In this document: positions 9,622 through 11,284 of the stretch, one piece after another
Numbering within the stretch: position 1 is the stretch's first letter
Layout: every line of letters starts with the position of its first letter
Source: Gudongella oleilytica
Lineage (GTDB): Bacteria > Bacillota > Clostridia > Tissierellales > Tissierellaceae
Direction of reading: 5' to 3'
DNA length: 64,000 nucleotides
Assembly (NCBI RefSeq): GCF_004101785.1
Contig: NZ_CP035130.1
Span: forward strand, 1,798,001-1,862,000
Notes under the pieces: model-generated
The model's input: the letters and a program-made list of their open reading frames with translations, nothing else
What the model was told of the DNA's origin: nothing
Database searches by the model: none
Translations under genes and position numbers: made by a program

Positions 9622-10746
9622 ATGCAATACCGTGAGATTACCAGTGAAAAGTTAAATGTTTCACTATTAGGTTATGGATGTATGCGCTTTCCAGTGGTGG
9701 GAGGAGATAATTCAAGGATAGATTTTGAGGAATCGGAAAAGCTTCTTAAGTATGCGATCGAAAATGGTGTAAACTACATCGATACGGCCTACCCCTATCA
9801 TGGCGGGAAATCTGAGGATTTTGTAGGTCAGGTACTGTCCCTCGGATTGAGGGAAAGGGTATATCTCGCGACAAAAAGCCCTGTCTGGCTCGTCAAAAAA
9901 TATGATGACTTCATAAAATATTTGGATGAACAGCTCGTTAATTTACGGACAAATTACTTTGATTTTTATCTTCTCCACTCCCTTGATGCAGAATCCTGGA
10001 AAAAAATCGTTGAGCTTGAAGTATTCGATTTCATCCATGAAGCGAAGTCTTCAGGTAAAATAAAAAATATCGGGTTCTCATTTCATGACGATCTTAAAGT
10101 ATTCAAGGAAATAATAGATTCTTACGATTGGGACTTCTGCCAGATCCAGCTGAACTATATGGACACAGGATATCAGGCAGGACTTGAAGGATTGATGTAT
10201 GCGAAAAACAAAGGAATAGATGTTGTCGTAATGGAGCCCCTAAAGGGAGGGAAACTGGCAAATATTCCTCAAAAGTCAAAAGAAGCTATTGAGAGCAAAG
10301 CTTCTGAAAGGACTGCTGCAGAGCTTGCCCTTAAATGGCTGCAGCAGCTGGATGGTGTCAAGGTTGTTCTCAGCGGAATGTCAAGCATGGAACAGGTGGA
10401 GGAAAACATCAAAATTTATTCTGATAATACTCCTTTGTCGGAATCTGAGCTTGAGGCAGTGGATTATCTTAAATCCTTCTTCGAGAGCAGGATTGCCGTT
10501 GGGTGTACCGGATGCGAGTATTGTCAACCCTGTAAAGCCGGAGTTCGGATACCTGGAATATTTGAGCTGTACAATAATCTTACGGTATATGAGACTGTTG
10601 ACCAGTCGAAATCATCATACAAAGGCTATGTAGAGAAAGGAGCCTCTTCACTTTCCTGTGTTGAATGTGGAGAATGTGAAGCGATCTGTCCACAGCAGCT
10701 TTCGATCATCAGTCAACTTAAGGATGCACACAAAGCCTTGATATAA
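9622..10746 (+). CDS. Aldo/keto reductase with C-terminal iron-sulfur domain
   Basis: Predicted oxidoreductase of the aldo/keto reductase type fused to a ferredoxin-like tail (374 residues). The barrel carries the tetrad residues Asp and Tyr in IDTAYPYHGGKSE, Lys in LATKSP and His in YLLHSL. Two cysteine clusters follow: CTGCEYCQPC near residue 295 and CVECGECEAICP near residue 343, enough for one or two 4Fe-4S clusters. Such proteins are common in anaerobes and are thought to take electrons from ferredoxin-type carriers; the substrate is unknown. AAGGAGG precedes the ATG by six bases. It is a single-gene unit, divergent from gcvT and convergent with rpsI. Confidence 0.92.
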   Translation: MQYREITSEKLNVSLLGYGCMRFPVVGGDNSRIDFEESEKLLKYAIENGVNYIDTAYPYHGGKSEDFVGQVLSLGLRERVYLATKSPVWLVKKYDDFIKYLDEQLVNLRTNYFDFYLLHSLDAESWKKIVELEVFDFIHEAKSSGKIKNIGFSFHDDLKVFKEIIDSYDWDFCQIQLNYMDTGYQAGLEGLMYAKNKGIDVVVMEPLKGGKLANIPQKSKEAIESKASERTAAELALKWLQQLDGVKVVLSGMSSMEQVEENIKIYSDNTPLSESELEAVDYLKSFFESRIAVGCTGCEYCQPCKAGVRIPGIFELYNNLTVYETVDQSKSSYKGYVEKGASSLSCVECGECEAICPQQLSIISQLKDAHKALI

Positions 10747-10750
10747 GCGA

Positions 10751-10786
10751 TGCCCTGACCAAATTTGACCAGGGCATTTATTTTCC
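10751..10786 (+). terminator. Probable terminator of the aldo/keto reductase gene
   Basis: Seven-bp GC-rich stem (TGCCCTG / CAGGGCA, 12-nt loop) beginning four bases after the stop codon, followed by TTTATTTT. Confidence 0.7.
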
Positions 10787-10790
10787 CACA

Positions 10791-10823
10791 TTATCCACAT
10801 TATCCACAATCCACAGTGGATAA
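10791..10823. promoter_or_regulatory. Cluster of DnaA boxes
   Basis: Two perfect TTATCCACA boxes lie head to tail with no gap (10791-10799, 10800-10808). A third, inverted and one base off consensus (TTATCCACT on the minus strand, 10815-10823), overlaps a 6+1+6 palindrome at 10809-10821. The cluster sits between convergent genes, so it is not placed as a promoter operator. A DnaA-binding or titration site is inferred from the box sequence alone. Confidence 0.6.
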
Positions 10824-10842
10824 ATTTGAAACAGTTTCAAAT
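10824..10842. repeat. 19-bp near-perfect palindrome
   Basis: ATTTGAAAC-A-GTTTCAAAT: two perfect 9-base arms around one base, directly beside the DnaA boxes and between two terminators. Looks like a protein-binding site or small hairpin; function unknown. Confidence 0.5.
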
Positions 10843-10854
10843 CTGCTTCATTAC

Positions 10855-10887
10855 CTAAAAAAGAAAAGCACCGGTTTTCCGGTGCTT
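10855..10887 (-). terminator. Intrinsic terminator of rplM-rpsI
   Basis: Nine-bp stem AAGCACCGG / CCGGTGCTT with a TTTT loop (10866-10887), five bases past the rpsI stop, followed on the minus strand by TTCTTTTTT. Confidence 0.9.
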
Positions 10888-10891
10888 CCAA

Positions 10892-11284
10892 TTATCTCTT
10901 GCTGAACTGTGGACTTTTTCTTGCTTTCTTAAGTCCATATTTCTTTCTTTCCTTCATTCTTGGATCTCTTGTGAGGTGCCCAGCCTTCTTAAGTAAAGGT
11001 CTCAGCTCTCCATCCGCCTGTAGAAGGGCTCTTGCGATTCCATGTCTAATAGCTCCTGCCTGACCTGTAAATCCGCCTCCATGTACGGTGACCTTTACAT
11101 CGTACTTGTCCACGGTATCACTTATTGTCAAAGGCTCCTTAGCTATTACCTTAAGAGTCTCATAGTTGAAAAACTCGTCAATATCTCTTCCATTTATAGT
11201 CATCTTCCCGTTTCCAGGAATCAATCTAACTCTTGCAACAGATGTCTTCCTTCTTCCTGTTCCGATAAATTGTATTGCAGCCAT
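10892..11284 (-). CDS. rpsI: 30S ribosomal protein S9 (uS9)
   Basis: Small-subunit head protein whose C-terminal tail reaches the P-site tRNA. 130 residues, with the typical [14 protein letters not shown] opening and the basic tail [12 protein letters not shown] that ends in the invariant SKR. Second gene of the rplM-rpsI pair, 24 bases after rplM. Confidence 0.98.

Follow-up and report, generated by a model that had tools for sequence, protein, structure and literature searches.

A conserved cluster of DnaA boxes outside oriC in Gudongella oleilytica and its relatives as a candidate DnaA-control site

Background

The core of the Escherichia coli DARS loci consists of three DnaA boxes, box I being opposed to boxes II and III, and the head-to-head contact of ADP-DnaA on boxes I and II drives the release of ADP (PMC5742627, PMC8682772). 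Read in the genome of strain MG1655, DARS1 has the form TTATCCACT-5 nt-TGTGGATAA-3 nt-TGTGTATTA, and DARS2 shows the same spacing of 14 and 12 bp. The accessory region of DARS2 is made up of IHF and Fis sites. The essential boxes of datA all point in one direction and depend on the bend introduced by IHF (PMC5742627).

In Bacillus subtilis eight regions of high affinity for DnaA have been described, none of them at rpsI or cwlD (PMC4447404). One of its intergenic DnaA-box clusters lies between the convergent genes gcp and ydiF (PMC4447404, PMC13220808), at about 0.3 of the arm (PMC4447404), and the joint deletion of the clusters leads to early initiation (PMC4447404, PMC13220808). A review from 2026 notes that B. 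subtilis lacks the datA and DARS loci and that it is not known whether this organism possesses regulators which balance ADP-DnaA and ATP-DnaA (PMC13220808).

Here we describe an intergenic cluster of DnaA boxes in a window of 64,000 nucleotides of the genome of Gudongella oleilytica.

The box cluster and its gene context

Two abutting TTATCCACA boxes are followed by an inverted third box, the whole three-box element covering 33 bp (window 10791-10823). The initial annotation had described two perfect tandem boxes and an inverted third box overlapping a palindrome, and its coordinates proved exact. The features of the site and its surroundings are as follows:

9622-10746, plus strand: gene of an aldo/keto reductase with a ferredoxin-like domain (PF00248, PF13187)
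10751-10776, plus strand: hairpin after the aldo/keto reductase gene, a probable terminator read from the sequence
10782-10790, plus strand: "box 0", a degenerate upstream box TTTCCCACA in 9-bp register with boxes 1 and 2
10791-10799, plus strand: DnaA box 1, TTATCCACA, found order-wide with the variants TTATCAACA and TTATACACA
10800-10808, plus strand: DnaA box 2, TTATCCACA, 0 nt from box 1, the best-conserved box
10809-10814, no strand: spacer of 6 nt, ATCCAC in the window (equal to a half-box), its letters varying among relatives
10809-10821: palindrome ATCCACAGTGGAT, overlapping box 3
10815-10823, minus strand: DnaA box 3, inverted and head-to-head, TTATCCACT on the minus and AGTGGATAA on the plus strand
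10824-10842, no strand: palindrome ATTTGAAAC-A-GTTTCAAAT (that is, ATTTGAAACAGTTTCAAAT), directly after the inverted box and occupying the tail position
10825-10834, plus strand: position at which other genera have the tail TTATGTnAAC; the sequence has diverged in the genus of the window
10864-10889, minus strand: intrinsic terminator of rpsI, scored by the terminator scanner
10892-11284, minus strand: rpsI, ribosomal protein S9 (PF00380), the syntenic anchor of the element

The box cluster is flanked by the aldo/keto reductase gene and rpsI, which run towards each other. The site had been placed between two terminators and outside a promoter; the terminator of rpsI was indeed scored and a promoter scan at the site returned one promoter-like match at chance level, whereas the hairpin on the other side is visible in the sequence but fails the U-tract rule of the scanner and remains unscored. 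The palindrome at 10824-10842 was found in this species only and is not conserved in relatives. Two relatives of the same genus carry other short palindromes at its place.

Uniqueness in the genome and position relative to oriC

Pattern searches of the whole genome, which comprises 2,356,157 bp in one contig, revealed 43 perfect TTATCCACA boxes (23 + 20), compared with 22 occurrences of the reversed control word. An abutting same-strand pair was found once, against about 4e-4 expected by chance from the box density, so that the possibility of tandem boxes being common by chance, raised in the initial annotation, does not hold for this genome. Perfect boxes facing each other head-to-head at a distance of 2-16 nt likewise occur at a single place, the 10791-10823 site (control word: 0).

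The oriC of this genome is located at dnaA at the start of the contig. It is normal and bipartite and possesses a DnaA-trio, a box and then the trio CTACTACTATTACTACTA being located between dnaA and dnaN from C1:1418 onward. Perfect TTATCCACA boxes are common to this basal unwinding system and to the box cluster, whereas the neighbouring dnaA and the trio belong to oriC only; neither of the two was detected at the box-cluster site. An alternative origin was rejected as an explanation of the cluster, since oriC with its trio sits at dnaA.

The distance to oriC, which had been suggested as a check, amounts to 548 kb from dnaA on the left arm, a fraction of 0.46 of the distance from dnaA to the opposite point of the chromosome, which places the site away from oriC in mid-arm. 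Among seven complete genomes the distance between element and dnaA corresponds to 0.29-0.50 of half the chromosome, and the orientation of the element relative to the replication fork is constant in all seven, including two in which the segment lies on the other arm. The conservation of the mid-arm position could in part reflect inheritance together with rpsI and the ribosomal synteny and not selection; such inheritance does not explain the conserved letters and spacing.

A second cluster outside oriC was observed in the same genome at C1:516569-516643 (L255:4070-4144), preceding an HPF-like gene and secA by about 200 bp. It consists of four head-to-tail DnaA boxes (TTTTCCACA, CTATCCACA, TTATCCACA and TTATCCACA) 21-23 bp apart and is found on the other arm at 517 kb from dnaA, nearly mirror-symmetric to the site in the window.

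Conservation of the element in relatives

When 40 relatives were searched at the DNA level with a 401-bp query, the box cluster appeared in many genomes as a match of its own. The loci that were read share the design (T)ATCCACn-TTATCCACA-TTATCCACA-6 nt-nGTGGATAA, mostly followed by TTATGTAAAC, in which (T)ATCCACn corresponds to the position of box 0 and is conserved in most relatives. Among the 24 aligned genomes box 2 (TATCCACA) and the inverted box 3 (G(T/G)GGATAA) are invariant, and the spacer measures 6 nt in all 24 elements, compared with 5 nt in four diverged orthologues. When 2-16 nt were allowed in a search for perfect boxes, the listed matches at orthologous sites had the 24-bp geometry, shortened to 23 bp in the diverged family f18. 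The mean pairwise identity in the 24-sequence alignment amounts to 83% for the 33-bp core, 56% for the 11-bp tail and 31-34% for the flanks. A lack of conservation in close relatives, which would have spoken against a functional site, is therefore not what the comparison revealed: the boxes are strongly conserved.

An 8-bp stem could form between boxes 2 and 3, and the site might in principle represent an RNA hairpin or terminator in which the letters of DnaA boxes occur by coincidence. However, none of the 24 sequences shows a compensatory change in this potential stem, which is broken in a few cells, a U-tract is missing and the conserved tandem box and the tail lie outside the stem. A stem without covariation is expected of DNA that is bound by a protein rather than of RNA. 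Given the lack of covariation and of any match in an Rfam search, the RNA element was rejected as scarcely credible.

A sequence-only model was built from the 24-genome alignment and applied with a cut-off of E<=6e-12. It detected the element in 54 of the 249 genomes of the order (counted from the table), a number which describes the spread and is no independent proof, since the model was trained on 24 of the scored genomes. The first occurrences had come to light through simple similarity of the DNA. At this cut-off the matches comprise 54 of the 69 genomes in ten families and none of the 180 genomes in nine others, nearly always with one copy per genome. Weaker matches that are orthologous by position were found in genus g12 of family f1 (G014, G020) and in family f18 (G185, G186).

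Outside the order no match of this strength was detected among the 393 genomes searched from the class and the 398 from the phylum. In other families of the class the model gave weak matches at different places (downstream of dnaB, in the interval between murC and a DnaB_2/DnaD-like gene, or beside PdaC-like genes), and these were not counted as members. Family f4 has head-to-head boxes of a 32-bp form, but in the three genomes read they belong to oriC, upstream of dnaA, and are not the element described here. In this family (L235-L237) a conserved TTATCCACAATTTAATCCACAnnnGTGGATAA is located about 110-180 bp upstream of dnaA, the head-to-head pair being situated inside oriC.

A search for the exact pattern in 84,980 named genomes yielded 77 stretches. 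Twenty-seven of these adjoin cwlD, rpsI, gcvT, an aldo/keto reductase gene or the intervening gene of families f7 and f11, and they include Tissierella praeacuta, T. pigra, T. simiarum, Thermohalobacter berrensis, Sporosalibacterium faouarense and [Clostridium] ultunense. From these named members we infer that the order carrying the element is the Tissierellales.

Synteny and changing neighbours

In every relative with both features in reach the element is located 3' of rpsI in one orientation, at a distance of 88 bp to 7 kb. Its usual neighbour is cwlD (NCBIfam TIGR02883), the 3' end of which mostly lies 50-280 bp from the element. In the window, and likewise in G001 and G002, two relatives of its genus, this gene is missing here and the element adjoins rpsI directly. 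The other flank is variable and holds gcvT, an aldo/keto reductase gene or unrelated genes. Based on an automatic choice of open reading frames, the site lies between convergent genes in 10 of the 26 relatives (11 with the window itself) and between tandem genes in 15.

The latter arrangement would suit a DnaA-dependent transcriptional element serving a neighbour such as the gcvT operon, cwlD or the aldo/keto reductase gene: in 15 of the 26 relatives the site is upstream of a leftward gene, often gcvT, mostly at about 60-640 bp, and in B. subtilis DnaA acts as a transcription factor (PMC4447404). However, the neighbours change between gcvT, the aldo/keto reductase gene and others, and cwlD is kept or lost, while the site stays; in the window the flanking genes converge on it and no promoter exceeds the chance level. 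We therefore regard a transcriptional role as very improbable and reject the regulation of one fixed neighbour, since the flanking genes change around the element.

Comparison with described DnaA-box sites

Like the DARS core, the element is compact and intergenic and contains one box facing two opposite boxes, and it lies between oriC and the terminus at a position that is conserved among relatives. Reverse-complemented, it reads TTATCCACT-6 nt-TGTGGATAA-0 nt-TGTGGATAA. The orthologues in G185 and G186, read in the same way, contain TTATCCACT-5 nt-TGTGGATAA, which agrees with boxes I and II of DARS1 in 18 of 18 letters and in the spacing. It differs from DARS, however, in the start-to-start spacing of 15 and 9 bp (14 and 9 bp in G185 and G186) as opposed to 14 and 12 bp, in the abutment of its boxes 1 and 2 and in its host, which belongs to a different phylum. 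Since topology and position agree with DARS and the exact spacing does not, we have not filed the element as a DARS.

The element shares with datA, which controls DnaA activity, the character of an intergenic cluster of DnaA boxes. In contrast to datA, its box 3 is inverted in all relatives and the module measures 33 bp. As the essential boxes of datA point in one direction, datA is the poorer model.

The initial annotation had compared the site with the intergenic DnaA-box clusters of B. subtilis. This holds in the loose sense of an intergenic cluster outside oriC in the Firmicutes, but the two share no address, the element residing at rpsI/cwlD, and its topology is nearer to the E. coli DARS core. 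It also contains 3-4 boxes as opposed to 4-11 sites and differs in its fixed head-to-head geometry and its orthologues over ten families.

The B. subtilis clusters are a precedent for pure titration, in which a high-affinity sink would bind DnaA after the passage of the fork and lower the amount of free DnaA. One of them lies between convergent genes, as noted above for gcp and ydiF (PMC4447404, PMC13220808), and other lineages have clusters elsewhere, such as that beside tsaD (gcp) in family f180. However, 3-4 boxes among 43 perfect boxes in the genome make a small sink, and the fixed spacing and the head-to-head box, both conserved across families, are not needed for titration, which we consider conceivable but rather unlikely.

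Other sites of interest were observed in further families. In family f180 (L248, L249, L250, L253), a member of another class, TTATCCACATTATCCACA-5 nt-TGTGGATAA shows a DARS-like spacing of boxes I and II. The genes on either side of the pair, named by eye, are tsaD (gcp) and a 5-formyltetrahydrofolate cyclo-ligase-like gene, an address which recalls gcp/ydiF. Between a polysaccharide deacetylase gene and a PdaC/DUF3298 gene, the Clostridium-like family f52 (L114-L117) possesses a different conserved DnaA cluster, TTATCAACATTATCCACA-6 nt-TGTGGATAACCTGTTATAAA, which has a tail of its own. In family f36 (L118-L122) a conserved ATCCACATTATCCACATTATCCACAGAGATATGCACATATGTTCG was found downstream of dnaB, the end of which resembles a degenerate LexA box.

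The tail and the terminus palindrome

Conserved sequence beyond the core is confined to a 10-bp tail, which is present in most relatives and not in the genus of the window. Of the 24 aligned elements 14 have TTATGT after the inverted box, usually as TTATGTAAAC. This half-site recurs in the palindrome GTTTACRTAA-N5-TTATGTAAAC. The palindrome was located in six complete genomes; five of them, among them the genome of the window (C1:1229599-1229623), carry it at 0.89-1.00 of the arm, and in the sixth, G236, it is near the origin.

A first search with a dif-type pattern returned scattered matches only. The palindrome was also observed near the terminus in the relatives G021, G037, G183, G218, G028, G015, G006, G004 and G034, often in 2-3 copies within a few kb and usually within a longer inverted repeat with species-specific outer letters. 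It is a candidate Xer or terminus-organising site, and the half-site has the letters of the XerD arm of B. subtilis dif.

These features may point to a chromosome-organisation site for DnaA and an Xer-type protein, serving for instance in SMC pausing or unloading or in holding the position of the arm, of which the boxes would be one part. At the B. subtilis terminus SMC is unloaded by XerD (as cited in PMC12322038). However, the tail is missing from the genus of the window and from some others in which the DnaA boxes remain, the palindrome of G236 lies near the origin and the Xer identity is based on the likeness to B. subtilis dif. We consider such a site quite improbable, and an Xer-type partner at the DnaA element is to be seen as a lead and not as a result.

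Proposed function

The uniqueness of the element, its conserved letters, spacing and orientation, its independence of the neighbouring genes and its mid-arm position lead us to a role in the control of DnaA. Based on the sequence comparison it is very probably a selected DnaA-control site of some kind, and it probably tunes the timing of chromosome copying. The unique tandem and the conserved boxes make a titration or reactivation site, as initially proposed, the best-supported kind of explanation. The complete explanation which we prefer, a single-copy DnaA-binding control locus outside oriC with a DARS-like mechanism, is advanced with slightly less than even confidence. The DARS topology of the element and the one-directional boxes of datA lead us to favour action by DARS-like nucleotide exchange over pure titration, an assignment by analogy that is tentative in itself. 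The lack of a known regulator of nucleotide exchange on DnaA in B. subtilis (PMC13220808) counts against it.

According to the DARS-like explanation two or three DnaA molecules would bind head-to-tail on the abutting boxes and an opposing one head-to-head on the inverted box, resulting in a compact complex. As suggested by the geometry, a pair of ADP-DnaA molecules facing each other over the 5-6 nt spacer may lose its nucleotide and be released as apo-DnaA, which would reload with ATP and promote initiation at oriC. With the site about half-way along the arm, its copy number would double at a fixed time after initiation, and this doubling would couple the progress of the fork to DnaA activity. 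The tail half-site, equal to an arm of the terminus palindrome and abutting the inverted box in most relatives, may hold an accessory protein in analogy to IHF and Fis at DARS2.

A more far-reaching version, in which an order-wide single-copy DnaA-reactivating locus of the Firmicutes combines a DARS-type core with a terminus (Xer-type) half-site, appears improbable from the sequences at hand. If true, DnaA activity would be set in mid-arm and coupled to a chromosome-segregation protein.

The occurrence of the DARS topology in a compact and deeply conserved form in the Firmicutes provides concrete DNA for the question whether regulators balancing ADP-DnaA and ATP-DnaA exist there. It is testable in cultured species such as Tissierella praeacuta, and the relatives offer a natural series of variants with a spacer of 5 or 6 nt and with the tail present or absent.
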